Shown one piece after another: positions 5,762-62,800 of a stretch of DNA of 64,000 nucleotides. Source of the stretch: Ulota crispa. Taxonomy: Eukaryota > Streptophyta > Bryopsida > Orthotrichales > Orthotrichaceae. The position numbers and the translations under genes are program-made. The notes beneath the pieces are model-generated. The model saw only the letters and a program-made list of their open reading frames with translations. It ran no database searches and had not been told where the DNA came from. The stretch is from positions 25,338,358 through 25,402,357 of the forward strand of contig OY987244.1 of the NCBI GenBank assembly GCA_963920765.1, written 5' to 3'. Position 1 is the stretch's first letter; every line of letters starts with the position of its first letter.

Positions 5762-6571
5762 ATGAGCTTTACTCAACTATTTCCCCAATATAATTCTAGT
5801 TTGAATCCATTACGTGGAAGCGCTATATAATGTTTAGTTAAAAAATTACGACAAAACATTATATTGGTGAATACAAGGTTGAAAACTCCAATAATTTGTT
5901 TCCAACATGAGCTGAAAAAAGTGCCAATCACTAAGCAAACAAGGTTTATTTTGGGAATTGAAGATGTGGAAGTGTTTGGTGAACCAAAAATGCTTTTGTC
6001 AAAACCACTAGAAAGAAAATGGAAAAGCAAACTAGTTTGGACCGAACTAACTAAAATTTGGCAAAGTGACCGGAATTTGATCAAAGGGTTTATTTTGAAT
6101 TTAGTCAAAGGAGATTATGCGGTAGCAATTGCAGGTCATATAGCTTTTCTTCCAAAGAGTCTTTGCAAAAATCAAAAAGTATTTCATAGTCAATGGAGAA
6201 TCTTCTCCATTTTGAACATGAACTCAAAAATTGGCAATATCATAGTAAAAGAAATTGGTGATGGTAAACTAGATTATTCTTTGCCAGCAAAACCGCGTAA
6301 AAAACAAGTAAAGCGTTTAGGCACAAAGCGGAAACACTTGCAAAACACACAAAAAAACACATTTTTTCATAAATATGAAAAGACCAAAAAAAAGAAAAAG
6401 AAAAATTTGAGTTTTATTCCTATGGTCTTTACAACCCAAAAGACCAAACAAAGCTTAAAGTGCTTAGGCCCAAAGCCTCAAGCCCACACTAAGAAAACGC
6501 ATGAAAATACGGAAGAATCCATCACAAATAATGTATCTAGACTCAAAGATCAAGGCCGGGCAAGGAATTAA
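5762..6571 (+). pseudogene. rps1: rps1, mitochondrial ribosomal protein S1, interrupted by an early stop
   Basis: The frame starts MSFTQLFPQYNSSLNPLRGS, characteristic of bryophyte mitochondrial Rps1, then meets an in-frame TAA at 5828-5830 where Gln (CAA) is expected. After it the same frame runs open to the TAA at 6569-6571. It includes NTRLKTPIICFQHELKKVPI, an S1 RNA-binding segment (KGFILNLVKGDYAVAIAG then HIAFLPKSL), and a very basic tail rich in KTKKKKKK and PKPQAH. Total length is 269 codons, close to the liverwort/moss protein. The single nonsense change is a C-to-T. It precedes atp8 on the same strand. Confidence 0.9.
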
Positions 6572-8123: not shown

Positions 8124-8327
8124 ACAATTTTGCACAAAGATGGCTATTTTCCACAAACCACAAAGATATAGGGACTCTCTATTGCATTTTTGGTGCCATT
8201 GCCAAAGTCATGGGTACATGCTTCTCAGTACTAATTTGTATGGAATTAGCACAGCCCAGCAATCAAATTCTTGGCAGAAATCATCAACTTTATAATGTGT
8301 TAATAACAGCTCACGCTTTTTTAATGA

Positions 8328-10263
<1,936 letters not shown>

Positions 10264-18650: not shown

Positions 18651-20420
18651 CGTTGCATCAAAAAAATAGTGCATTCTAGGACTTTCACTATTTCTGCCAT
18701 TATGTAAAATTTAACATATTACAAAAAGACAAGCATGCACTTTCTTGTACAATAGTGAACTCTCAGTGATTGCCTCTAGGAGTTTTAAATAATTACAACT
18801 TTGAGCTATAGCTATGCCTACATTTATTGTATGTAAGATTATGGTAGAGTAAAAAATTGTCCCTCCATTTTTCCTAATTCACCTAATATGGTGAGTAAGT
18901 TTTTGGAAGTTAGCTAACATTTAATGTGATGTATCTAAATCACCCAACGTCCAAACCAAAAAAATTACAAATTCTTTTGAAATTGTGCACCTGTGTATAA
19001 TTATTTTGAAATTGTGTCCCTATCTATAATGTTTGTCATTTTCATGCCCCTCTTTGTAATTTCCCCTATTTTTATCCTTGTTAATAGAAAAACCTATCAT
19101 TTTAATTCTAGCCCAAAAACCTGGATAAGTAGTAAACAAAGCCTCTTGGCCCCATTCCCCTGGATATGAGCAACGAGGGGGTCACTTCACTCCATCCGGA
19201 CCACCAATGCCATGGTGCCTCTACATTAACTTTTTAAGGTCTATGCATCCAAAAAGTGGATGCGGCTTGCATGGTCAACCTTGATTTTAACTTTCAAATT
19301 TTCAATTTTTAACTCATGGTTCAAACTAAGAAAATGAAGTTTGATAAGTTTTCTTTCTATTCCATTTAATTTTCTTGAAAAATGTCAAAAATTGAAAGTG
19401 ATATTGCCATTGAAAGTTCCAAGTGTTAGAATCCAAATAACACATTATGGTGTGTTTTTCTTTCATAGTTTCTACTCTTTAATTGCATTTTAAATTTAAA
19501 CTATAAAACTATGTTTCTCATTCTACCATTCATTTATGGTAGAAATTACATATTTTTTTAATATACATTATAATCAATATGATTTTGTCTCCATATTTTG
19601 CTTTAAAAAATCACAATAATTCAAATTTTCCATTAATTTTTTTGAAAAAAATAAATAAATAGAAAATGAATGTGTCTTTCAACAAAAATATCAAAAATTT
19701 ATACATTAATTAAATATAAGGATAAACTTGGTTTGATAATCAAATTTGATTTTAAATCCTTTAGTCTGGTTGTTTTTGGTGTAAAAAATAAAATAACCAA
19801 TTGAAATTTTTTAACACTAATCTTTAATGCTGCTTGTACCTTTTGAAAAAAAATCAAGTAATTTGGGTCTTTTTTTTATTTTAACTTGAACATTTCAAAA
19901 TGGATCAAGTCCTTAGGGGTTAACACTCAAACGCTGAAGAGGAAAAAAAAAGTACTCTATAGAATGGAGAAAAGTTTTTTCCATCTTTTTTATTAGAAGT
20001 GATCATAGTTACATAGTTTGTTATGGATGGCAAAAGCAATCTCACCAAATGCATTCATGTCTTTAGGTAACCCAAATTTTGTGAAGATTCACAATCATAG
20101 TGTTAAGTCTCATGCTGCCCTTCTTACAATCTTCATGAGGGTAGTTTGCATGGTTGACTTCTACAACTTTTGAAAACAAAATGATTTGGATGGACACTTG
20201 CCACACTACTATAGAGCTATTAGAGGCGGACGGTTTTGGTGACCAACCCAAACGTTTGGTGATTAGCCAACCCAATTGAGGTGGGTGATAATAGGGGCCA
20301 ATGAATGCTAAGGTTTGTTTTTTTTGAAAATTTTAATGATAATGCAACATGCTCCACACAATGCAAGCATGCAATTTGAATAGAATTGGATAGAATTGGA
20401 TAGAATTAAGGGAAAATTTC
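18651..20420. other. AT-rich nuclear intergenic DNA, no gene
   Basis: Only short chance frames are present. A transposon-end-like ggggttaa occurs at 19,917-19,923 without a recognisable partner, and a 12-bp tandem of gaattggata lies near 20,381-20,405. Confidence 0.6.
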
Positions 20421-22423: not shown

Positions 22424-23340
22424 AAAGAGGTGCATGCGCCTCCAAGTGGTCAAATGATGAGTCACAAGGTAACTTTCCATGATAAGGTAACTCAATAGTC
22501 AAGGCAACCTAAATGCAATATTGAGTGTAGTGCACCCTAAAGAACCAAGGGTTCTTTTTGGGGACAAATGGGATTTTGGGCATGTACCTATGGCTAGACT
22601 ACTTTGCAAGATTTTTAGAAATTTTTATTAAAGGTGAGGAATTCAAAGATCTACATGGGAATGTAACTTTTTCTTCATTTTAACATTTATTAAAGAAGTT
22701 AAAAATGAATTTCTGGAAAAAGCTGCTTCCCAGGCAGCCAAAAATTTCTTTAAAAATTTCATTTCTTTCAAATAAAAATCTAGAATACGTTCTTTAGACT
22801 TATGTAGATGTGGGGAGCTTTGAATCATTCAATTTTGATAGATGAGATGAAAGTTATGAGAAGTTTTAGTTTGCGGGTAGGTGGTTTAGAGCAAAACCAC
22901 ACATACTCGCAAACTAAAACTTCTCATAACTTGCATTTCATCTATCAAAATTGAATGATTCAAAGCTCCTCACATCTACATAAGTCTAAAGAACCTATTT
23001 CAGATTTTTATTTGAAAAAAACAAAATTTTTAAAGAAGTTTTTGGCTGCTTGGGGAGCAGCTTTTTCCATAAATTCATTTTTAACATCTTCAGTAAATGT
23101 CAAAATGAAGAAAAAGTTGCGTTCCCACATAGATTTTTGAATTCCTCACCTTCAATTAAAGTTTCAGAAAATCACGCAAAGTAGTCTAGCCATAGGTGCA
23201 TGCCCAAAATCCCATTTGTCCCCTGAAGGGACAATGGTCCTTTAGGGGTTAAGTTGCCTTAACAATTAGGTTGCCTTACCCTACAAAGTTACCTCATGCT
23301 TCATTGCTAGGCCACTTGGAAGCACATGGAACTCTCTAGA
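22424..23340. repeat. Giant inverted repeat (arms about 440 bp)
   Basis: The left arm (22,424 to about 22,890) and right arm (about 22,900-23,340) are reverse complements over nearly their whole length, joined by a short loop around ggtggtttagagcaaaacca. The arms hold tcattcaattttgatagatg and aaaacttctcataact at the centre, then tgggattttgggcatgtacc, then a TTAA-bounded end (ttaggggttaa at 23,242-23,252, only decayed in the left arm), then an inverted copy of the flanking dispersed repeat (ctccaagtgg). RNA from here would form a long hairpin. Confidence 0.85.
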
Positions 23341-23968: not shown

Positions 23969-24560
23969 TAATCAACTTAAGTTAGTGCAAATTATTCTAT
24001 TAACATGCTATGCAAATTCAATTGATTCTTGAATTAGTGCAAGCCACACTAATTGAAACAACTTGTGTAGTAACATGTGCAATATCATTTGTTAACACAA
24101 ATAAATAAAAAATTGTTACAAACACCATTTAATTGTACCATTTTATTGTAATAGTGATATATATTGATCAAATTTCTCGTGTTTAACCCCTAGACACCCA
24201 CGAGGACAATTATTGTCCTCTTGCCCTGAAAAAAAAAAATGTACACCAAAAAAAGTTGTTTTTCATCTGCTTTTTTTTCCAACATGACTGTAAATACATG
24301 ATCCATTATAGAAAACAAAAAACCATCTTGTCAAATATGCTCATATTTTTAGGTAACCCAAATTGTGAGAAAATTCAAAATCATGGTGTTACGTCCGAAG
24401 CTACCCTTATTGCAATTTTCATGAGGTCGGAATGCACTATTGACTTTTGAAACTTTTAGAAGCAATACTATTGGTGCCCATCAACCAAAATATTGTTGAA
24501 GCTATAGTATAAGTACTATTGAACCTACAGTGTGGGCAGGCCATGGCCACCCAACGGTCC

Positions 24561-25519
24561 TTTACCCCTAGAGGCCCATTGTCCCCGCAAGGAACAAATG
24601 GGATTTTGGGCAGGTACCTATGGCTAAACTACTTTGCGTAATTTTTTGAAACTTTTATTGAAGATGGGGAATTATAAGATCTACAAGGGGATCTAATTTT
24701 CCCTTCATTTTGACAATTATTGAAGAAGATATGCATGAATAATTGAAAAACAGGGGAGAATTGGGCAGCAAAAAAAATTTGCAAATTTTTTAAATAAAAT
24801 TTTGAAATTGGTTCTTTAAATTTTTATGCATTTGGGAAGCTTTGAATCATTCAATTCTAATAGATGAGATGAAAGTTATGAGAAGTTTTAGTTTGCTAGT
24901 AGGTATGGGACTCCCAAACCTCCATTATTACTTTTCCCCCTTGTAAAACTTGTTGCTTTACTTTTTTGAGCTCTTCGTGTATTTGTTTTTTGGCTTTTTT
25001 TTTGCAAGTTGTAGTAGACTAAGATTCCTTGGTTTTCACCGTTTGGATCAAAGTAATTTGGATTTTTGAATTTTACATAAATCTTCCAATTTTGCCTAGT
25101 GTATATGCAAATTTCATGACCTTACGGCATTGTAGGATCTTACAAAGTATGATTGACACCTCCATTTCTTTTGAAAATTCTCCCGCATTTACCTAACTTG
25201 GTTTTCTACATGGGAAAAATGAACCTCAACTTTGCATAAAGCAATTTTTTTGATATAGGAGCCGTCAAAGGCTTCTGAAATTTTTGGGCAGCAGGGAAAA
25301 ATCTTTTGTTTTCACTTCAGATGTCAATATCTCACTCCTTTACAACTAGAATGAGCTGATTTTTTCCCACAAGTACCTCCCATAGTCTAAGACAAGATCT
25401 TACAGTTGAATTTCAAAAAAAAAAAAAAAATTACATTTCTCTTCACTCCCCCAAAAGTGACAGTTTTAAGTGATATTCAGAGAGAAAAGGGCTTGGGCCT
25501 TTAAGGGTTCAGGGGTAAA
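24561..25519. mobile_element. Probable decayed member of the TTAA-target MITE family
   Basis: The left end tttacccctagaggcccatt and the right end gggcctttaagggttcaggg resemble inverted versions of the CCCCTAAAGG termini found elsewhere in the window, but both putative target sites read TTTA rather than TTAA. The left interior (tgggattttgggcaggtacc, gatgagatgaaagttatgag) matches the giant inverted repeat at 22.5 kb. A separate possible terminus, ttaacccctagacaccc, occurs at 24,183. The limits are tentative. Confidence 0.45.
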
Positions 25520-40654: not shown

Positions 40655-41540
40655 ATAATAGGCTTAGTTCTGTTAGTTGGGTAATTGGGTGTCAAAATAA
40701 TAGAATGTAAGGCGGTTGAGAAACTAATTAATAACCAAATTTTTTGTAACCGGATTTTCTACCTTACTAGCCGGCATTGGATGGGGGACCATGGACATTG
40801 GATGGGGGACCATGGGCATTGGATGGGGGACCATGGACATTGGATGGGGGACCATGGGCATTGGATGGGGGACCATGGGCATGGGATGGGTCATGAGGTG
40901 TTTCATGGACATGGGATGGGTCATGAGGTGTTTCATGGACATGGGATGGGATGGCTCATGGACATGGGATGGGATGGGATAGGTCATGGACATGGGATGA
41001 GATGGGTCATGGGCATGGGATGAGACAGGTCATAAGCATGGGATGAGATGGGTCATAAGCATGGGATGAGATGGGTCATGAGCATGGGATGGGTCATGGG
41101 CATGAAATGGGTCATGGACATGGGATGGGTCATGGACATGGGATGGGATATAAGGCCATGTGAAAAAGTTGTGATTGGTTGAGGGCCAAGGAGCAAAGTG
41201 ATGAACATGCAAAGTGATGAACATTGGCTTTGGGTGTCAAAGGACATGTTTGGTGGAACCTATTGGATTGTTTTCAACTTGAATTTGAAATTGAGAAAGA
41301 AAGGAGTGGGGAGGGAGATGAAGAGGCAAATTGATTTTATATTATTCCATGGAATGTTTTTTAATGTGAATTGGAGACCAAGTTAAGTTTGGAGGGTTTG
41401 CAGACAAAAATTCAGAATGCAGACCAAATTTCATGTCAATTTTTTGCAGGGACCTCCTCTTGTGATGGCCCTTTGTCGGAACGGCACATACAAGTTCCCA
41501 CTAGTTTGAGTATGATAAATAATTAAATTTGAACTGGTAA
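40655..41540 (+). repeat. Dispersed element copy containing an expanded minisatellite
   Basis: The left end (ataggcttagttctgttagt) and right end (gtgatggccctttgtcggaa) both recur in the same order at 48,910-49,320. The minisatellite is present only in this copy. Confidence 0.6.
40775..41152 (+). repeat. G-rich minisatellite
   Basis: Five 21-bp units of cattggatgggggaccatgg are followed by two 30-bp units containing tcatgaggtgtttcatgga, then shorter catgggatgggtcat units. The strand asymmetry is strong (G-rich on plus). Long open frames here on both strands come from the repeat and are not genes. Confidence 0.93.
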
Positions 41541-42569
41541 AGTAAAAAGATATTTGCAATTGCTCATAATGAGACCAACGAGCACGGAGGTTTGAAAACA
41601 ATAGAATGTTGACCTCTAAAGGCCCAAACATTAAACTTTTGGCATCATAGCGATTTTGGGCAGCTCACTCAAAAAGGATTTTTCATTCTTATCTTTGAAA
41701 TTTTACACATGATGTGCCCAAGCGATAGCTTTAAAAACCACACACATATTCATAAAATCCACTAAAAACACAGGAGGTAAATTTAGATGTGCAATTCAAT
41801 CAAATTTAAACCCAATTTCAATAATCCAATTGTACAAGTGGGAAGAACACCTTGTTTACTTTAAAGTATCAAGATTTCTACCAAATCTATCTTTGGAGGT
41901 GAAATACTATAATGATTGGGTGAGCAATAGGTGGGAAATCTTTAGTTTTTCATGCTTGTATAGTTTTGAATGTTAATGCTTCATGCAAGCTTTTCTTGAG
42001 ATGAGCCTTATGTTTCTAAAAAGTAAGGTTTTCCACCTTTCCAATAAGACTAGTTTCACACAAAATGGATAAAAATAGCACGCACAAGGTGTAGCTAAGT
42101 GGACAAAAAGGGTCAAAATCCCACTTTGTATGCTACCCCAAAACTATTCTACAATTTTTTTGATAAATGCCATGGAAAATCCAATTGGTGAAAACAATCA
42201 AGAAGTGAAAGATGAAATGTTAGCACCATTTCAATAGATCATCAAACACTGCAATTATATTGCTATCATGTAGGAAACAATATGGGCGTATTTCTTAAGA
42301 AATTTGAAAACTTGTAAGACTGCACAATTGAAATGTGGCATTCTTCTTGAATATTTGATGTATTGTGTTGTTGCTTTGATCTATCTTTGACCAAAAACGG
42401 ATACATGTTTTGAGACCATGTTGTATAAACACCATTATTTTTTGAACTCACTCATATCCAATTCCATTGAGGTTTTTTTGGTTGGATGCAAAATTCTTGC
42501 AAGCACACGCATTCTTTAAGACAGTTTTCCAAAATGTTGAGCGGTTTTACTTTGTAGGTCAAAAACCAC

Positions 42570-42792
42570 TAAGGTAGAAATACTTTATTCCGCCCCCTAC
42601 TGTAATCCCGCGCATATGTATGTGGTTGGTGTATTTTATCCCCAGAATCTAAGGAAGCCATAGATGCCCTACTTTTTGGGTCCCAAAAAATAGGGCATCT
42701 ATGGCTTCCCTAGATTATGGGGATAAAATACACCCACCTTATACATACGCGCGGGATTACAACAAGGGGCGGAGTAAGGTACGTCTACCTTA
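42570..42792. mobile_element. Perfect foldback element with TA ends
   Basis: Arms of about 100 bp are near-perfect reverse complements (ccccagaatctaaggaagcc, catagatgccctacttttt and complements) around a short tttgggtccc loop. The outer ends read TA-aggtag and ctacct-TA, the same termini as the 316-bp MITE family, which suggests the same transposase could move both. The G+C-rich arm part gtaatcccgcgc is unusual for this region. Confidence 0.8.
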
Positions 42793-42831
42793 TGTGCAAC
42801 CAAAATATGGTTGCCTGGTCCTTAACCCCTC

Positions 42832-43471
42832 AACGCCCCTGGAATTTTGGAGTATCTCAGAATTTGCTTGAAAGTGAACAAAATGTTGGCATTTTGATCG
42901 ATTTTATCAATTTTCTTTGAAATGTAACCGTACAAATTCTAAGTAGACATGTTATAGATTGCATACAAAAAGAAATCACAACTATTTCACTTATGGATTG
43001 AAACATTATAATGTTTGATCATGACGGTGTTAAAATTGTGAAAGTGATTTGAAGTCATTCAATCCTCTTTTTGCATCTCAAACATAAAATTGAGGGTACC
43101 CAAAAAACATAAGTATGCAAAATACAACATGCATAAATCCAATCAATTTACGGCTTCTCAAAATCTATTCTACAACTTTTTTAAATGAATTTTTAATGCA
43201 AAATTTTCTCCATGTTCTAGTGTACTTGAGGCTCATTTCCAAGAGCCTTCAACACTACAAAGTGAAAATTTGCAATGGACACCTTTGCACAAAATCGAAT
43301 AGACAAATCATGTTAATTCATTTTGAAAATCAGACTCTTGATGTTGAAACTAGACTTCAACAACAATTTAGATATAATAATAACCACAAAAAAATCTAAA
43401 AAAAACTTTTGACATCCGTGAACAAAATTCAGAGGGGCACAAATTGCGCCCCTCAGGCGTTGAGGGGTTAA
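42832..43471. mobile_element. TTAA-target (piggyBac-like) MITE 1
   Basis: The left end reads TTAA-cccctcaacgccc and the right end, in reverse complement, TTAA-cccctcaacgcctg. Thus a 16-bp terminal inverted repeat lies between TTAA sites. Length is 640 bp with no coding potential. Confidence 0.75.
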
Positions 43472-44694
43472 AGGGTGAAGCTCAATGTTTTGATGCTATC
43501 TTTACCTTGCTTATGGCACTACATACAACATGTCCCATCTACCTTTGATTGTCATTATGTAACCTTGCCAATAGAAAGCGAGCAATGGAATTGCAAGTCA
43601 GCTTACATTGCACATCAAAGTTGGCAAACAAGAATGACCAAGCATTAGGGCTCAAAGTTCTAGTACTGCATTTGGTAGGTTAGGGTCAAGATTCCAAGCT
43701 GCCTTGCAACCAAGGCATAGAATTTAGAATCTTCTAATGTGGATTGGCACTTACGTTGTAGTTGCATGTATTATTGAAAAACTCTCTAGATCATGCAATG
43801 TGGATCCAATTGCATTTACATTTGTTCCTTGATACTTTGTGGTTTGAATCTACTTTGTATATATTTTATCCCATTGCACAGTGTTAACCCTTTTGAACTC
43901 TAGCAGATTATCAAATTTAAACCCCTATGAAAATGTTGCTGGATTATTCATCAAAGGAGATCTCTTTTGGAAATAAAGCTGAATCGTACTCAAATGAGAT
44001 TTTTAGATATTTGTTTGTTTTGTTGATTCATTGATTGCAAAGCCTTTGGAATATGTTCATGGATTAATGAACAAATGAAGATATCTTTGCTCTCGGATAC
44101 CATATTTGGACTTGTGTTCTTGGTAATCTCAGGGCTCCAATGGTACAAGGAATCCAATTCATTTATGCATAAATATTAAAAAACACTTGAGTATCTAAAA
44201 AAACATCAAAGCTTGTACTGGATCTTGACGTGGTTTATCCATGATTATAGCTTGGCAACTAAGGGTGGGTGGGCATGCTAGATGTAATATTGTAAACAAT
44301 GTTGGATTGAGCCAAAGCCTTCCGCAGGAATCATAATGCCACTTACCATGATAAGGAGCACATTTAACTTCTAACAAATAATACAGATGAAATTGATCGA
44401 GGTAAGTACGGCAACTCTATTTGTAACAGAAAGTATATAAACATCAATCTGAAATTTAAGAGCACTTTACACTGTGTCTCACATCTTGTTTGAGCAATTC
44501 CCACTTCAGCATGAGATTTCAACTATGCTGGGTTATGAAGGGTACAATGGATCACCTAGCAAAAAATATATATATATTATATTCAAAAAGATGGTAGAAG
44601 TTGGATTGAAAGTTGGGTTGAAAACAAGTTAAAGTTAGCTCTTTGAGCAAAGTGCCATATCTTTGGCATCAAATCTTCTAGAAACTGTTGTTAT
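43472..44694. other. AT-rich intergenic DNA, no gene
   Basis: Short chance frames only; nothing recognised. Confidence 0.5.
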
Positions 44695-45623
44695 TTAACC
44701 CCTAAAGGATCATGGCCTTTATTTTGTCAAAAGACACTCAAAACTGCCACCTCTATGGCAAAGAGTAAAAAAGTTTGAAAATCAAGCATTTTGCATATTT
44801 GGCCGTAGGATCTTGTGCTAGACTATTATAAGAATGTGTCATACAAAACTCAAGAACTTTGACTGCACAGATTGGAAGATATTTGTATTTAAAAAGTAAA
44901 AAACAACTTTTTTTGCACCTTGCTTGATTAGATTTTTTAACTTTGAACATTTTTAACTTAAAATTTTTGCACCATAAAGTTTGGAATTCTATTTTTGCAT
45001 GGTGGGAAGTAGAGTTGGGAATCTTGGGAAAAAATTTCAAAAAAGAATACTTAATTTTCATTCTTTAAAAAAACATTAGGTAGAAGAAGGTATGAGATTG
45101 AAGAAAAACTTAAATTGCTAATAACCCTGCAATGGAATTGAAACACAATAATTCCAATGGTGAGATTGTTCTAGAAAGCAAGCTTCACCCTCTCCAACAA
45201 ATTTTTTTGAAGGAATGTTAAATCTGCATTCAAAAATGAAGTTTATAAGTTATTTTTTCAAGAAGATGCTTGAGTTGCCCAAAAAACAAGATTGTCCATA
45301 ACTTTCTCATAACTAGTCCAAATGGAATGAATCAAAGCTTCAGAAGTAGATAAAGATATAATCTATGAGAAAAAAAAATTAAATTTTTTTTGAAGTTTTT
45401 ATAAGAATTTTTTTTGCTGCCCATAGTCTCCAAATTTGTGCTTATTTGGGCATAACTTTTGCTCCTTGGCATCAATTGGAATGAAAATTATATTCCCCAA
45501 AAGCTAATGTGTTTTTCTATCTTCAAAAAAAGTTTCAAAAAATTAAGACAAAAATTGAGACCGTAGGTACCTGTCCAAAATCCCATTTGTCCCCCAAATG
45601 GACAATGGTCCTTTAGGGGTTAA
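44695..45623. mobile_element. TTAA-target (piggyBac-like) MITE 2
   Basis: The left end TTAA-cccctaaaggatcat and the reverse complement of the right end TTAA-cccctaaaggaccat agree at 14 of 15 bases after TTAA. The right interior (tcccatttgtcccc, gtaggtacctgtcc) matches the end of the giant inverted repeat at 23.2 kb. Length 929 bp. Confidence 0.8.
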
Positions 45624-46112
45624 GCATGTTTTAATTAAACAGTTTGAGACTTGAAACATACTGTGCTTTGCCAAAAGGCAAAATCCAGACATTTAGCTCT
45701 GGACCAATCAAATCTGACATTTTAGTGGAACTTGGAGCGTTGGCAGCAATTTCTTGAAGCACTTCATGCTCTTTTTGGATGAATGCGAACTTTTTTTTGA
45801 CAAACACAAGTAGTCAACAACTTTTTTATCTAATGTGTAGTTTATCTTGAAGAGGCTAATTTAGTGAATTTTAAATATCATATCACAATATTTTTTCAAC
45901 CGAGTTTGCTAGTTTTCTCTAGCAACCTTAAACACCACATCCCTTTCTTTGCTGTGAATGGCAATTAGTATATCTTTGAGAGCAATTTACTTGCAAAGAT
46001 TAAACATGTATCAATAATAGATTCTCGGATAAATTCTTTTAAATCCAGAGCCTCCAAATACCTATCTTTCATGAAGACCACTTTCACCTTCCTCATATAC
46101 TGTTTGTGTCCA

Positions 46113-46352
46113 TTAACCCCTAAAGGATGTTCCCTACCAAAAGTGTTGTTTGTAATTGTACAAGAACCATTTAGTACTTGAAGTAATGACTTTATGATAA
46201 ATATCAAAAATTCCCCAAAAAATTTTAGTTGACAAGTTGTTTACAACTTGGCTTGAAACTTACAACTCCAATGGGGTTCATTTGCTATCCAAATACCCCA
46301 TCTGTATACAACTTGGGAGTCCGTATACAAAACAACATCCTTTAGAGGTTAA
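46113..46352. mobile_element. TTAA-target (piggyBac-like) MITE 3
   Basis: The left end TTAA-cccctaaaggatgtt and the reverse complement of the right end TTAA-cctctaaaggatgtt differ at one base. At 240 bp it is the shortest clear copy. Confidence 0.8.
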
Positions 46353-47416
46353 CAAGAATGTTTTTTTAACATTTGTTTCTCTATTTGCTTTCCATTTGGT
46401 GTGTCTATTGTAGTACACCCATTATAATGGCAAAGCATCCAATTTTATTGTATAGCTCGGTTCAACATCTTTTTATTGCTCAAATCAAAATAGGTACAAA
46501 ACAAACAAGAGCTCCAACCACTTCAAAATCTTCAACAATATCATTTGCCTTCAATTTATGAACAACCAAATTTTGTTAAAAACACTAAAAGATAACGTGC
46601 AATAAACGGTTGGTTTACAATAATTACAAATGTCCTAAACAACTATCATATCATAAAGTCATTGTTTAATTGTTTAAGATATTTGCAATTGTTGTGACAT
46701 TTTTTTCATATGGTGAAATGAGCAGCAATTAATGCTGCTTCCTTCACTTGTTGTTTATTTGTGTTTACAGAAATGTATGTTGAATTTCTTTTTGCAAATT
46801 CATCAGCCATTAGATGACCGTATTGTGACGCATTTAATGAAATTACAACAAATCATTGAAGAATCATATCTTCCCATTACTGAATTATAGTGTTGAAAAA
46901 CACCCTAACAATTCTAAAAACTTAAAGTAAACATTGCACCGAACCAAAAATAAAGAAAATAAAATTAATGTTATACAAGTGGATGCAAATAAATAAAAAA
47001 TAAACGAAATGGGAATTATGATAAATGGTTACATCTTTACATAGGAAAAGAAATTACAATTTTTTACTTTGTTAAAATAAAAATACAAAAGTTGTATAAA
47101 TAAGTAAAGTAAACTTTTTAATAATTACAAAGGCAAAAATACTTTTACGGTGTTAGAATTAAAAGTTCTGTTTTTGACACCATTTAAAATCTAAAATTAA
47201 GTTTTCAAAATAAATTCAAAGGAGAATTACTACCCATTCCAAAAAAGTTACCTTGTACTCCGTACAATATTTTTGTATATGGATTATTATGATTAAATAG
47301 AAAAAAATGCTAGCATTTAAATACGCATTCATTGAGAGAGATTGATGTTGTAAACCAACAAGCTTAGAATATGTTGTTCAAGCAATGTTATAGGCACAAA
47401 ATGCTCTTGTTAATTG

Positions 47417-47828
47417 TTAACCCATTAAGGACCGGTCGACCAGTTTGTGGTCGATTTTGACTCTTTTTTGTTTGTAGAGAGAGCATATCAAGGAATTTGA
47501 TGATGTGGCAAAGGGGACTGGTTTAGGGAATTGGAAAGTGAAGAGTTTGGGACAATAACTAGGCCAATCTGAGGTACCATGTGGCTAGAGGGTTGAAAAA
47601 ACTAAAAGAGTACCAATTGAAAATACACCAATAAATGCAAAAAGATGACCATAAAAATTAAAGAGTGAGCATAATTTATGATGCATAACACTAAACCCTA
47701 CAAGATACTTTCATTTGTATGATCACATCTATGATAGACATGTGTATTCAAAAACCCTAAAATTTCCCCCAAATGGCCATACAAAGAATTGCCCACCTCA
47801 GAATCGACCACGACCGTTAAAGGGTTAA
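47417..47828. mobile_element. TTAA-target (piggyBac-like) MITE 4, divergent
   Basis: The left end TTAA-cccattaaggaccgg and the reverse complement of the right end TTAA-ccctttaacggtcg are related, and a ggtcgatt block follows inside both ends. Length 412 bp. Confidence 0.65.
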
Positions 47829-51950: not shown

Positions 51951-54900
51951 ATGGCCACCTCACCCATATTTCTTGTTTTAATTTTTTTTGAACTTTTAGC
52001 ACCTTGTAACTATTTGTGAAATAAAAAAACATTTGGTTTTTGTTTAGAAGGTTAGAAAATTTCCTTATCATGGACAAGTTCATAGGTTGATTTCCCAGAG
52101 TTTCAAATTTCATTTGGCCCATTTCCTCATCTACAAGTGCACGTTCTACTAAATTTCTTGGAGATGAAATTGTAACTCAACTTATTTCCTAAAGCTATGT
52201 TTTTATGGTCGGAAGCAAATCCGCCAACTTTCATTTTTTTGGGCAATCCACAAAAAAAGTTGGCTAACTTGTAACTAAAACTAGGTTCTCCCCAAACATT
52301 GATGGGTAGAGGATTTTGTTGTTTGACTTGTACACTTAATTAAGTTTGTACATTTGAGCATGATGGTTTGTTTACTTTGCCAAAAATCAATAAAAACAAT
52401 AAAAACAAAAGAAATATCTAGTCAAAAAGTTTGGTCATATCACACCTTACATCAAATACTTTATAAATCATATATTTGTTACATAATGGGATTTTTGTAA
52501 CTCAAAAGATGTGCATATGGATTTTTTTAAAATATAAATGCAATAAAAAATCAAACCAATTATTATATAAAATCATGAATATTACATATTGGTTTTAAGG
52601 AAATGAAATTTAGTATGCTTAAATGGGATAGTATAAGGAGTATATATCAATGATGCAAGAAAATAAAATGTCAATTTTATTATATATTATGCAAAATGTT
52701 GTGTGGTAGAAAATTATAAACACAAACTCTCTTTCAAGAACTATACACCAAAACAACTTCTATCTTGGGCCTACACCCAAGGGTGGGGTAATATAACATC
52801 CTTCAAACAATACTTTGGGAGGTTTGCAACTAGGGAGAATAATATAATATTACAATAGTACCGTATAGTATAATGTATTGTGAGAATTAAGACATGATAA
52901 AAAAGCATTTGGTAATGACCCGTCGGTGACCCGTTAGGCGCCACTTTTTTCGACGAAGGCGGCTCAATTTCTATGCAAGGGAAAAAAAGACTCTTGAATT
53001 TAGTTTGTCCTCCACGGTGCGGAGCAGTCTTGGAGCGAAAGGCGTATAGAATGCAGTCAAAGAGTGATACAAAGAAATAAGGGAGATAGCAGGATCCAGA
53101 TTGGAACAATTCGAGAGCAAGAGGCGTGCAGTTTGGGAGGCGGAAGAATTAGGGAGCTAATAGAGTATAGCGCAGTACAGTAGTTAGAGGGATCTGGGAG
53201 CGGTGTTGAGCAATTTAGGAACAAGTGGATCACGGAGCGGTGTCGGGTTGAGAGAAGCGCGCCTTGGGAACACGCAAAGTGTCTAGCTGCGACCATGCGT
53301 CGTTAACTATGAAATCTTGTCAGTTTTTATCTTTACTTTTTAAATCTTGAGTCTTAAGTCTTTCGTTGGCATATCCTATAGTTGGCTTTAGGGGTATAAA
53401 AGCCAAGGTAGAGATTAAAACCTACTAGATATAGGACGGGTAGATTGGGATAGCAGACACAAACTGCTGTTCATATAATAGGATCCTAAAATCAAATTCA
53501 CGATCTATTAGCCAAAACTCTAGATTGTGAGAACAGAGCAAGTATAGATCATGAGAGTCATCAATCTCACTTTGTCATTATAAAAATAAATGGAGTTAAG
53601 TTTGGTTTAATCCAAACTACCCACAACAAGGTTTATAAAACAGATTGAAAATAAAATGACAAACGAGCATTCAAAATCGGATAGGAAAAATAAAACTACA
53701 ACCTACACATACATAAAAAATAAACCCAAAACATTCCATTTGAAGTCTTCATATCTTCAGATTTTCAAGTGTTCATGTCTTCAATTCTTCATGTTTTAAT
53801 AAAAACAATAGGGAAAATCACAATCAACAGATCTTAGGAAGGCTGCGACCTTCTATCTAATGTCACAGATGGCTCAAAGATCAAAATACTAAGTGTAATA
53901 GCATTTTGAAAAGCCCTTCTAATGTTCTAATCTTTCTTTAAATCTCAACTCAGTCTAAGCTACTATTTAAAAGTTATGCAGGTTCAAAGTAGAGGCTCTT
54001 CTTCTTCCTTATAAACTAAACACTGCATTTTTAAACTTCTATAACTTTTGTTTTAAACATCACCCATACTTATGTGATATTAATTTAAAAAAATGATACT
54101 ATTGGCTGCAATTTGTAAATTTTTTATTACAAACTAAAACTCTGTCCAAAAGTTCTAGTCAATTAAAGTTTGGGTCTCAATTTTTTAGAAAGCACCCAAC
54201 CTCCCAACTTCTACACACTATAATTCCTTCATTAAAACTTCAAATAAAGTAATTGATCATAATTCAAAAAACTATGACAACAACCTACCACTTCTAGAAG
54301 TTTGAAAAGAAAATTTTATATTGTCTAAAAGTTGTAGCCTCTCAAAACTTTGGTCTTCTCTCAACAAAAAAGCAGCCACGTTCAATCATTTACACCTTCA
54401 ATCATTTACACCTTCCTAACTTTTTCCTCCAAGTTCCAAATCACAAATTTAAAGATTTTCTAGAAAAATAAAACTAGAATGAATACTTTGTTCAAATCTT
54501 GTTCCAAAATAACATACATATCCTAAGCTATGACTTGTCAAAGTTTCAGCCTTTCTTCATGGTTTGATTTTTTAACTCCAAAATTCAAATACTAATAATT
54601 TTTGCATCACAACTTCAAATCAAACTTGCAAATTTATTTTGGAAAAATGATCATACAAAAAATAACTCCTCCAAATTTCACTTTAAAATATTATGTACAT
54701 AGAAAATTCTCTTACATCAAAGTTTTAAATTTTTTTTTCTCTTCCAACCGATAATCATACACTAACTTCCAACATACAAAGGAATCTCCCCTACTACATT
54801 TCAATCTTATCCAAGTTTGGAGGTGGGACAGTCCATATCCCTCTCTATCCTAATCCCATTATAGATGTCAAATCCTTTCTCCTTTCACACTTTCCAATTC

Positions 54901-57900
54901 GCTTCTAAATCCTTAGTATTTTTATTCAAACAAAGCAAAATATATGAGCTTTTCAAAACATCTAGATAAACACATAAAAATAAACAAATACAAGATAAAC
55001 ACCACCGTAAAGTGGCAACGTGCCATTGTGAACATATAATAGGGTCAAATGCATGTTTTCAGTCTCCAAATCGTAAACTTGGTTGGCTGAAGAAGCAGCC
55101 GTTTTTGCCCGCTTGCCGGTTCGGATTCAAATCCAATTGGACTCGTCGAACGATGATGGCAGTCTATGGCTTGGTAGCTAGTGATGTAGGAAATTGGTTT
55201 AGCCAACCCGCTACCTACCTCCCTGAGCTAGACATGTGACAAGACGGCGCAGCACATTGGAATTTATGGCCGTTGCGCTATCACCAAACTGTGATTTTTA
55301 CCACGACCACTCCTTTTGTCTTGACTGTTGATTTATTGAAATTAACACAAACATAGATAAATAACGTGTATCAACATAATGAAAACATCTCCATCAAGAC
55401 AACGGTGCTGATTCTGATCCGGGAAGAGGTGAGGTGCAGTGTAAGAGGCTAGAGAGCAGTTCAAGAGTCGGGAGAATCGAGTGCCAACAGCTTTTTCTAT
55501 CGCATCTAGCATCATAGTTTATTATTGGAATGTTTCTGTGAAGAGACTAGCATGTTGCACACTAGAATGTGACACTGTTGCAGGAAGTCTCTACTGCATT
55601 AATAGATCCATGGGATTATGTTTTGACACCGCAATGACATACTTTAACACTGCAAATGCATTTTGGGGAGCTCGTTTTGAGATGGCAAACAAATCTTGGT
55701 AATTGTAGCTGACTCGCGTGGATAAGGTAAATGCCACTAGAGTGGACAAGGCGAACGGAGCAGAAGACCAATTGGACCAGCTTGCACGTGCATGATTCTC
55801 TAAGAAGAAATAGTAATGTAGCAACCTTATCGCAATCAGATAAATACAGTTAATTTTGCATGGCTTTATTTTAATTTTGTATGTTTTTATTTTAGAAAGC
55901 AAAATTGGACATCATAGAGTATGGTTCCTATAAACCAAAGATTCTAACTACAAAATTTTCTTCAAATACATAAAGATGTGAAAGCTGCTTGTTTAATCCT
56001 CAAACTAGTCATAAGGGCATTTCTGAACTTAACCCCTAAACGCCTGAGCCGCTGAGCGTGCCAGTGTGACCAATGCAGGAAGTTTTTTCAGTATTCAAAG
56101 ATGTTGCCAAACTAGGAATTGATTAGGGTTTAGGAGGTTTCAATTGTATTTGATGTGTTCCCTAAGTTTTGAAATGTTCTGTGGATTCAGAAGGTTTGTA
56201 TGCAAGATTTGAGAAGCATTGGAGTTGGAGCATACGCATATGTATTTTAGTAGGTTTTTTTGCAAATCTAGAGGAGGGGCGGGTTCAAGAATGGTTGACG
56301 TGTTGGTAAGGACGCCACGCTGGCCTCAGATTCCTCATTTTGGCGCGGTGGCTAGTTTTTGCTCTTTTTGCAAAGTACAGTGAGCACTAGCCAAGTTTTT
56401 TTATGCATGGACGTTCTCAAATGTGAGACCTGTGATTATTTGAGGATTTTTCATGTAGTGCATATTGCATAGGGTAAGTAGAGAAGAAGACAAGAATATG
56501 CCCTAAACCGCATGTATAAAGATTGGAGTGTAGTTTTCACAGGTGTTTATGTAGCGCATAGCTAGAAGACCGTTTGAGAGCGTCATATTGCAAGGCGTTT
56601 GGAAAAACATCTATGTTTCTCTTTTATGTTTTTTGTATTTTTTTCCGGCATATGTGAGTTGTTATGTAATATTCATTTGTCAGAAGGTCCACTTCAGCGT
56701 ACATGGAACATGTCAATGCATTTGCATTGGTGCTTGTGGACAACTGTTTGTTGTAATTGAAGTCGTGTGAATTTCACTCGCTATGATTGAGATGTGCTTG
56801 AAGTATTGTAAGCTTTTCAGTGAGGCTTTTTCATGGATGGCGTTGTGAGTACTTGAACCACAATAGCCAATTTGAGCAAGCAAAGTGCAAGACGGAGGTC
56901 TTGCAATGAAATCATCTTACTTGAAACCTCTAATCCCCTAGCGTTGAGCACTTAGCTGTAAGGCGTAAATTGCGTAATGTGATGTTGAAGATGACATCCT
57001 TGAACCCTTGTAGATAGAAGAGAGAAAGTGTTACAAAACAAAACCAAGACTTGCAGGTTTCAATTGACCGCAACAATTGCATTTGCACAAATACATTGTA
57101 TTTCCTATCCGTATGCACTACTGCTTGTGTTTGTGACTTCTAAAAGCGAGCAAAAAGACAACGTGGTTTACCTTGACTTTTGCTTGGTCAGTGGAAGGTA
57201 TATGTAACTCTCTAGATGGAAGGATTTCACATGGCTCACAACCTGATGCTACTAATTTGTTGTTCCGATTTGTTGAACAATCGTAGCTTTGTTGTTGTTG
57301 ACAGGCCTACCCTTTAAAAGTTGTTTGTTGCAGTAATTATTGATAAAAACTACTGTAATATGAATAAGTATTTATGTAGTGCACAATGTTGAGAAATTTG
57401 TGTAGAGCAACTTAAATGCAATATTCAGTGTAGAGAGATCACTTTGGATGGGGCCACCTAAATGCAATATTCACTGTAGATCTATTTAGAGCAACCCTAG
57501 AAGGTTGTGGTTTTAGCAACATGTTGTCATTTCCTTGTACTCTACATTGGAAGAGTATAACAAGTGTTGACATGATTAAGTTCCCAACAGACATCTATGA
57601 ACTCCCTCTTCAATTTGGGCAATAACCAACATCTTGCTAGCCTCCCAATGCAATAAGCATAGTAAACTTTTGTGGATATTTTGTCAAAGTTGTAAAACAC
57701 GAGAGTAACTTAGATATTAGATCAGCGAAGAGCAGTCAAGAGTATCCAACGTCAGTAGGTTTCTCACATCTATCAGATTATCTATAATTTCAGCTGATTA
57801 TACAAGGTCTTGTTGATTTTGTCTCAAGTTGGCAAAGAGTGTTTCTTAAATCAACAATTGAACACGGCCTTTTTACAAGTTAAACTCTTTCAAGTCTTCG

Positions 57901-59806: not shown

Positions 59807-62800
59807 CTAATGCAACTGAGATTCTAGTAACAAGTTTGTAGCTGCTGTTATGTCGTTCCGAGCAATCGCTAAAGCTTGTAGGGCATCGTCCCGGTCAAAC
59901 CCCATCGCCACCAGTGTTGCAACGTGCTCTTCCGGTGGTGCTTGTGGAGCACTCAATGGCGGTGCACTTGCAGCAAAACGGTGCTGCATTTTTTCAAATG
60001 AGATTATTGTAAGATGGTTTACACAGTAGCGTTGCCATAGAAAGAATCTTCCCCAAAATTCATGGAGAAAACTACATATGGTCACAGAGATCATGCAGAG
60101 GCCTCTTCTTTGATTATGATGAGAAGGTTTCGATGTAATAATAATAACCAAAGGGAGTTTTCTTCATGAAATACGGAAAAGCTTCTCTTCATGATGTTGT
60201 CTAATACTTCTTAAAACAGTCTAATTTTAATGAAAAGCTATATACATAGTAAACAGAAATTGCAAACTTTCAAATATGAAGAAGTAATTGAAGTGGATAC
60301 CTCAAATGGGCGACCTAAGGGTCCATTAAGAGCCGAATTTCTAGCTGTAGTTGGTGGTGTGGAGACGCCAGACATGAGTGGTGCAAAAAATCTTCCAGCA
60401 GCCGACGCCACTCCTTCTGGAAACTGGAGGAAAAAAACAAGGATTCGATTAATACACGTGACAATCTTGACAGAATGTGCTTATGAACTAGGAAAGATGC
60501 TTTTTCGAGGTGGATAGCAAATGCAGGTGTACCCTGCTAATAAAGCAGGTGACAAATGAGTGACCTGCATTTGGTAGCCACGTCAAAAAACACTGCTACG
60601 AAGGACGTATATCATGTCGGTGAGTCGAACTTAAACGAGATATTAGCTCAAATGCAGGGTTGGAGAAAGTTTTAGAGGATTACCTTCACTTTTCTGATCC
60701 CCAAAAGATTGGACTTGTAAAGAAACCCTGCTAGAAGTCCGCAGATTCCAGGAATGAGGGACCGCCTCCATGATGACAAGAGAAGCTGCAAAACCAAAAC
60801 CAAAAAGTGAGGATAATCAAGAAACGTAAACAGAAGGATAGAGAAATTCAGATACATTGCGAAGTTACACAAAGAATAACATTTCATATGCATATCAAAC
60901 TGCTAAGAAAGGTGTACCAATAGTCCAGTAAAATGCAATCAAAGGACAAGATTTTACCTGTAAACCGGCAAGGTAGACAAAAGACTTGTCCGAGAAGCGC
61001 GCTCCAAAGATTTTGAAACGAGTGGATATTGGAATGTCAAAGAAGAAAGGAACAAATGAAGCAAATATCAAGCCATAAGGTCCAGGAGCCAAGAAAATTC
61101 CTGTCAATGCGGTCGGATCTGCAGAGCAGATTCCACGTCAATTGATATGTCCTGAAGTCAGTCCAAGATTCAAGGAGATATGTTTTTATTACTCAGTAAT
61201 CTTCTTTAATATGATACCTTATAATAGTCTGACAGTAACAACTCATTTTGTAGTACAATGTAGGAGCCTGTAAAAACTAAGTTCTTTAAAGCAAAAGACG
61301 TGGGATACATGGTATTTCCTGCAGTACAAACAGACTAATCTTTATGTACCTCTTAGAATAGCTAGTGCGGCAACCTCAAGCATTGTCGAGACAATTGAAG
61401 AAAACAACACAAAAAACTGCCATGCCCACTGCCAACAGTTAGTTCACAATAGAAACAGCATGAAAGATTTCGGAGCCCCAGTAATTTCCCAACTTAGAAG
61501 GGGAATATGCCACTATACATGAAACAACGGAAATGTCTTGATTAGGAGTCCACTTCAAGCTCATTCTATACGTGCAGGGTGAAGAGAGGCAATATGAGTA
61601 ACAAGAACCATACCAGGTATTTATTTGACCCAATTTGTCTTTCGAAGACTCTGAAAAAGTAGACGAGGTACAGTCCAAACAAGAGCTCCGGTGTCGACGA
61701 AAACACACATGATGATGAGAGCAAGCGCCATAGCTGTAGCTTTTGTACAACTTTCTGTCATTCCACAAAACATAATCCACACATAAGCTTCGATCAAACT
61801 TAGCACTAAAGGTATGTTCACACTTTAGGCTAGCAAAGTGAGTCTCGTCCAAAGATTCATCTAAAAGTTATACCTAAGACTCTCACAAACACCACTCCAA
61901 ACACCAACACCAAGTGTAAATATACCTTAAGGTAGAGGTACCTATTTGCCACACGTATTTAAGTACAACACCCTAAAATCAACAGTACATATAGATTTTG
62001 AGAATATATACCAATTTAACATCAAAATATAACATACTGGATTCACATCGTTTACCCAAAAAAACTTTATACCCTTGTAGCTTCTTGCATACAACATTCA
62101 CAAAGGACATACATTGGTGCATTGGAATTCACTTGCAATTGCTAACATCAATTAAAGATCTGAAACTATACTTAGAGCTTCAAGTGTTGCTGTTAAGTGG
62201 GTTGCCTAAAGTAAATAACCTTCAAATTAACCATATTCATTGGACACTTTCATAACGAGGTTGAACACATCTATCTCTTCTCTGACTAGACACTGCAATA
62301 TGCTTTATTGGTTTCGGTTAACCCATACCCTTAATTCCACGGCAAGAAATCACAACCTTCAAATTTGGCCATAAACTGTCTCAACATTAAAGTCAGATAT
62401 CGAGCGAGTGCTTCAGGTTTAGGATTTCATCCGAGGTCGGTATTTTCAAGAAATATCCAGAAGATATCTACCATACTAGCATTAAGAAGGCAATCATACA
62501 AGAGCTCTGAGAGGGTCTTGTGGTGAACTTGCTCCATACAAGCCGAAAACTCTTCAATGAAATTAAGATTAAGTTAAAATTAAACTGTACCTGATATGAC
62601 AGGCTAAAGCCATTGGCACCGCTTGCAGTGCCAACCAGTACCGTGGCCAGACCACATGCTGCCACTATGCCCTTGGTAACAGGAGCATTGTCTGCAAAAC
62701 CCAGAGTTCTTGGTGTCACAAACGTGATATATTACATTAGGGTTAGACATCTCTGTTCTAATGCAAATAGACAGAGGCCATCATTGTTAAATCCAGAACG

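Follow-up and report, generated by a model that had tools for sequence, protein, structure and literature searches.

Four short TTAA-bounded elements, very probably piggyBac-superfamily MITEs, in a land-plant genome rich in piggyBac-type ends

Here we have analysed a 64,000-nucleotide stretch of DNA (the window; C3:25338358-25402357 of a genome of 274.8 Mb in 157 contigs, which is the scope of all genome-wide counts below) that harbors four short elements bounded by TTAA, called E1 to E4, between positions 42822 and 47828. We hold with high confidence that these are miniature inverted-repeat transposable elements (MITEs) of the piggyBac superfamily, transposons familiar above all from animals. 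Other loci of the genome are given as L numbers.

42822..43471, no strand assigned: E1, a 650-bp non-autonomous TTAA element with inverted ends TTAACCCCTCAACGCC
44695..45623, no strand assigned: E2, a 929-bp non-autonomous TTAA element
46113..46352, no strand assigned: E3, a 240-bp non-autonomous TTAA element whose ends resemble those of E2 but whose interior differs
47417..47828, no strand assigned: E4, a 412-bp non-autonomous TTAA element, both ends of which match transposase locus L020

A first-pass annotation, made from the letters of the window alone, had described four TTAA elements with inverted CC-type ends; all are present, except that the first begins 10 bases before the 42832 given there. 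The inverted ends pair at 16 of 16 bases in E1 and at 95% of 19 bases in each of E2 and E3, and are weaker in E4 (TTAACCCATTAAGGACC vs TTAACCCTTTAACGGTC), which is absent both from the 25 longest inverted pairs of the window and from its list of TTAA palindrome pairs. All eight ends begin with CC[C/T] (CCC in seven, CCT at the right end of E3). Specifically, TTAA is followed by CCCCT in E1, in E2 and at the left of E3, by CCTC at the right of E3 and by CCCAT at the left of E4; CCCAT is among the piggyBac end motifs in the available text of PMC10813416, and loci of this genome that encode the PF13843 transposase domain carry both CCCT and CCCCT ends. At E 1e-3 no match is seen among E1 to E4, so they are several families with like ends, and not the one family that had been proposed. 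E1 has a relative within L009 (76% over 576 bp), and the sole match of E3 in the sequence compared (the window plus the loci) is itself.

E2 and E4 have been amplified across the genome. A search with E2, in which 40 of 3,279 candidates were scored, returned 42 match rows, comprising E2 itself, 39 further copies that are complete or almost so at 94-95%, and two short pieces at 72-77%; the corresponding search with E4 (40 of 762 candidates scored) returned 40 rows, namely E4 and 39 such copies at 87-89%. The boundaries of E2 were profiled in 16 copies, the window copy and the 15 best-scoring others, with a mean pairwise difference of 5.6%. In these the similarity begins and stops at TTAA: the left end reads TTAACCC in 15 (the exception, L038, reads TTTAAACCCC), the right end reads GTTAA in all 16, and ungapped identity of the flanks averages 27% on each side.

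Related sites that hold a single TTAA further mark it as the target. The scan covered 84 candidate end pairs in the sequence compared, the sites being paralogous and not alleles. In seven of the 84, the match continues past the junction by at least 30 bases in each direction; mispaired flanks gave a mean of 0.23 (maximum 2, 30 shuffles). A single exact TTAA with unbroken flanks is found in a relative of five insertions (L033, L039, L041, L042 and the 8562-9478 element of L025), so that the check for empty sites proposed at first pass came out in favour of a TTAA duplication, within the limits of paralogous sites; the exact TTAA is present in two of seven relatives of L033, the others differing at the site, and in one of two relatives of L041. 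Three further candidates were dropped: the relative of L036 has TCAA in place of TTAA, next to a gap; L013_1105 has 17 gaps; and L011_831 has only 20 bases on one side. E1 itself lies in E0, a further TTAA element (listed below), where it is inserted at an inner TTAA belonging to the right end. The uninterrupted E0-type end, which represents the host site of E1, has 520 matches in the genome at up to 3 mismatches (control 0), and the inner TTAA is present in 99 of the 100 rows listed.

The ends themselves are very numerous. A genome-wide search for the termini, which the first-pass annotation had called for, recovered the exact 14-base end TTAACCCCTAAAGG 15,411 times, as compared with once for the reversed control, and the looser pattern TTAACCCYTNANNGNCC 31,318 times, as compared with 9. 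Exact CCCCTAAAGGACCA sites stand directly after TTAA in 7,555 of 8,876 instances (85%). For one 18-base end, the first 100 positions listed include 17 convergent neighbouring pairs within 2 kb, 13 of them at 903-1012 bp, and one divergent pair. Within the window, counts over positions 18001-64000 were set against 60 dinucleotide shuffles: TTAACCC occurs 13 times (shuffle mean 7.65, maximum 15), which is not significant, TTAACCCYT 11 times (mean 1.25, maximum 5), TTAACCCYTNANNGNCC three times (0 in shuffles) and a looser one-mismatch end pattern 16 times (mean 2.15, maximum 7). A palindrome control for pairs of at least 13 of 14 bases gave three TTAA pairs (E2, E3 and the arms of a hairpin) and was not clean, with four AATT pairs, two each for CATG and GGCC and one each for AGCT and CTAG; ATAT and TATA gave 151 and 137 pairs, which we put down to simple repeats. 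Chance is thus moderately excluded by the window alone, and we take the observation as real because the genome-wide end counts decide, the window statistics being too weak by themselves.

Transposase genes of the piggyBac type are present in the same genome, some of them within similar ends. The PF13843 profile search gave 120 match rows, all over the family cut-off (best E 1.3e-73, 254 bits; 116 of 528 candidates scored), and the open frame of L017 matches piggyBat at 2.6e-24 and piggyBac at 7.6e-20 in phmmer. Twenty loci, picked for score, long frames or few stops, were studied further; their mutual identity is 28-73%, and aspartate is kept at the three catalytic positions in 18 of 20, 14 of 20 and 18 of 19 loci, respectively. 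The second catalytic aspartate is lost in six loci and reads asparagine in five (L010, L015, L016, L024 and L028), a replacement that would fit G-to-A change in decaying copies. Across 15 pairs, the proportion of nonsynonymous differences (pN) is 0.16-0.31 where that of synonymous differences (pS) is 0.56-0.91, a pattern that fits long purifying selection with pS saturated; the ratio of the corresponding rates (dN/dS) has a single value, 0.22, as dS is saturated in 14 of the 15 pairs. Some copies also share conserved frames upstream of the DDE domain, for which no Pfam family was found (four frames searched at E up to 1, two more at 0.01). A C-terminal cysteine-rich domain is typical of the piggyBac superfamily. 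A Cys/His pattern can be seen by eye in L011, L012 and L023, with no Pfam match for such a domain in the pieces scanned. A scan of IMG/VR with five aligned transposase frames gave nine pattern matches, none of which was confirmed. In L011, a long HTYI tandem-repeat run (5873-6493) lies just downstream of the transposase.

Alignments show that subterminal sequence, too, is shared with these loci, at both ends of E4 and at one end of E2. The left end of E4 aligns with the left end of L020 (70% over 234 bp, E 1.4e-17) and with L013 (77% over 60 bp), and its right end with the right ends of L020 (73% over 66 bp, E 3.6e-4) and L025 (75% over 67 bp, E 1e-4). The latter two right ends have 318 bp in common at 76%, and this is therefore probably the element's own end, at ~7250 in L020; a right end at 8215, taken from end pairing, was given up, since the subterminal matches place the end at ~7250. 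The left end of E2 aligns with the right ends of L023 (80% over 56 bp), L011 and L026, and also within L019, where we take the match for a neighbouring MITE. Furthermore, the right ends of L023 and L026 have 446 bp in common, and those of L011 and L023 share two collinear pieces. The expectation at first pass of a PF13843 transposase with the same ends is thus borne out insofar as such transposases are abundant, some between TTAACC ends, and for E4 and E2 by the matches just given; for E1 and E3 it extends to end sequence only.

We accordingly read E1 to E4 as elements that possess no more than the ends recognised by a piggyBac-type transposase and that probably moved in trans, excised at TTAA and inserted at another TTAA, which would then stand on both sides. 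It was presumably the PF13843 transposases of this genome that moved these copies, and excision would have been seamless.

Several observations weigh against this assignment. At the ends, the strict CC[C/T]T motif stands directly after TTAA in one of eight (the right end of E4, CCCT), and under a lax 14-base rule eight of the 84 candidate empty sites pass, with mispaired flanks giving a mean of 2.2 (maximum 5). At the transposase loci, 110 of the 120 PF13843 rows have an internal stop (10 have none), and all three catalytic aspartates are kept in 12 of 19 loci, which bears on present activity. Only 12 of the 20 loci have a pair of TTAA ends that agree at a minimum of 14 of 20 bases and include CC at one end or both, the other eight having none, and TTAACC at both ends, 5.0-6.0 kb apart, is found at only six (L009, L011, L012, L013, L014 and L016); this pairing was done without a control in a genome rich in such ends, and several loci have more than one possible pair. 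Lastly, the right end of L020 has decayed to GGGTCAA, and the similarity common to the right ends of L023 and L026 is interrupted before the transposase, so that a separate MITE may lie there.

The alternative that survives best, though we consider it improbable, concerns half of the set: E1 and E3 may have been moved by an unrelated TTAA transposase and be piggyBac-MITE-like only. In its favour, and also against the assignment above, neither has a subterminal match to the 20 transposase loci, out of at least 116 scored, and both are joined to them by short end sequence only. However, the left ends of E3 and E2 are identical over their first 16 bases, and the relatives of E1 have the same kind of end.

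It is very unlikely, judged by end and subterminal sequence, that E1 to E4 belong instead to the Kolobok superfamily, which likewise duplicates TTAA and has the MITE-forming habit seen here, as described for the T2-MITEs of Xenopus in the available text of PMC6004289. In the same source these have another transposase and ends of the RR type (AGGRR in T2-MITEs), whereas all eight ends of E1 to E4 start with CC[C/T], and subterminal sequence of E4 and of E2 recurs in PF13843 loci. The pairing of TTAA with a CCC-type end, offered at first pass as the sign of piggyBac, stands as regards the CC[C/T] ends; TTAA alone is not diagnostic, since Kolobok also targets it (PMC6004289).

A shorter target is just as hard to credit. 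PIF/Harbinger has the target TWA. MITEs of that superfamily or of Tc1/mariner (TA target) could have had their outer letters fixed by chance, given that T-TA-A holds the shorter targets and that both superfamilies are known in land plants (PMC9033089, Table 1, as far as available), but the four TTAA letters are 94-100% conserved in the 16 copies of E2, where conservation of the next outer base drops to 31% (left) and 44% (right), and five related sites retain one full TTAA.

Features shared with the piggyBac superfamily, as represented by PDB chains 6x67 ('Transposase') and 9c0f ('piggyBat transposase'), are the TTAA target, the CC[C/T] ends and a PF13843 transposase with three D motifs. The present elements differ in their land-plant host, in their conserved frames upstream of the DDE domain, which belong to no Pfam family, and in length: the better-bounded transposase elements measure ~5.0-6.0 kb, as compared with ~2,472 bp for a typical piggyBac (PMC10813416, in the text available). 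A close parallel is offered by coral CMITEs, linked to piggyBac in the accessible portion of PMC2872659, which are short TTAA elements with a CC[C/T]T-type motif, the four-base piggyBac-type end motif of that paper. An allele without the element and a weak internal similarity to a transposase-bearing element are reported there as well, and we count both as likeness; CMITE interiors are conserved between families, whereas those of E1 to E4 have no mutual match.

The kind of element, a piggyBac MITE, is known; here it is very abundant, and in a land plant. A 2022 review of land-plant transposons lists six terminal inverted repeat superfamilies, and its main text, as available, does not include piggyBac (PMC9033089). 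Table 2 of a 2015 survey places PiggyBac among the superfamilies in all groups studied, land plants included (PMC4438587), and a table for the C-fern genome has 1,230 PiggyBac entries (PMC6890710), each in the parts of these papers available. To call such elements rarely reported from land plants, as had been done at first pass, is thus fair, although they have been reported already. No paper on piggyBac MITEs in a moss was among the matches listed in the open-licence PubMed Central literature. A light-harvesting protein of the genome (L044) matches many plant and algal chains; after 9vfj, a 620-residue chain that was set aside, the two best are 7xqp and 8htu, which are Physcomitrium chains, and together with the genome and contig sizes this makes a moss host likely. 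We suggest, tentatively, that piggyBac elements have radiated on a very large scale in this land-plant genome, probably that of a moss, with several transposase lineages at only ~28-45% identity, recognisable ends numbering at least 31,318, and larger elements that carry a conserved coding region upstream of DDE. If so, it would represent a plant branch of the piggyBac superfamily that is left out of current plant classifications; and if piggyBac-type ends number in the tens of thousands in one plant genome, such elements may be missed or misfiled in plant annotation. The spread across plants of this kind of transposon, so widely used as piggyBac, could be tested by end patterns together with PF13843.

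Beyond E1 to E4, further TTAA-type elements and ends are found in the window, including all five lone or decayed ends that had been pointed out at first pass, at 19923 (-), 23252 (-), 24183 (+), 24561 (+, decayed) and 56029 (+).

41723..43479, no strand assigned: E0, a decayed TTAA-type element with a degenerate left end, limits set by eye
22535..23252, no strand assigned: TTAA-type element whose inverted arms are long; its right end is intact and its left end decayed
24183..24529, + strand: TTAA-type element (left end TTAACCCCTAGACACCC) with an uncertain right limit; matches L014 464-809 at 88% over 347 bp
24561..24907, + strand: decayed TTAA-type end TTTACCCC; the sequence next to it is related to L009
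24687..25511, no strand assigned: decayed TTAA-type element with right end TGAACCCTTAAAGGCCC
19900..19923, - strand: lone TTAA-type right end
56029..56060, + strand: lone TTAA-type left end TTAACCCCTAAACGCC

E0 matches elements in L014, L018 and L025 (77-78% over 870-874 bp) and is split by E1 and by a 223-bp palindrome (42570-42792) with 111-nt arms that are 87% complementary. Over its last 300 bp, the element at 24687..25511 resembles sequence found at the right ends of L023 and L026, two of the transposase loci (for L023, 75% across 303 bp at E 1.7e-49), and the element at 22535..23252 matches a stretch of L009 near 530-1256 in both orientations at 86%. No convincing partner was found for the ends at 19923, 23252 and 56029, the first and last of which were searched within 7 kb. 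Additionally, ~2.2 kb of the window (53241-55404) match the stretch left of the L025 transposase at 77%.

The first 18,000 positions of the window are mitochondrial-like, with two cytochrome c assembly proteins, ribosomal protein S2 (rps2), COX1, a group II intron maturase and tRNAs; the contig is 34 Mb long, and this stretch may be mitochondrial DNA copied into the nucleus or the product of a join made in assembly. Two open frames are also noted, one of short tandem repeats (HWMGDHG units) at 40685-41023 and one with a UBA domain at 59807-60163.

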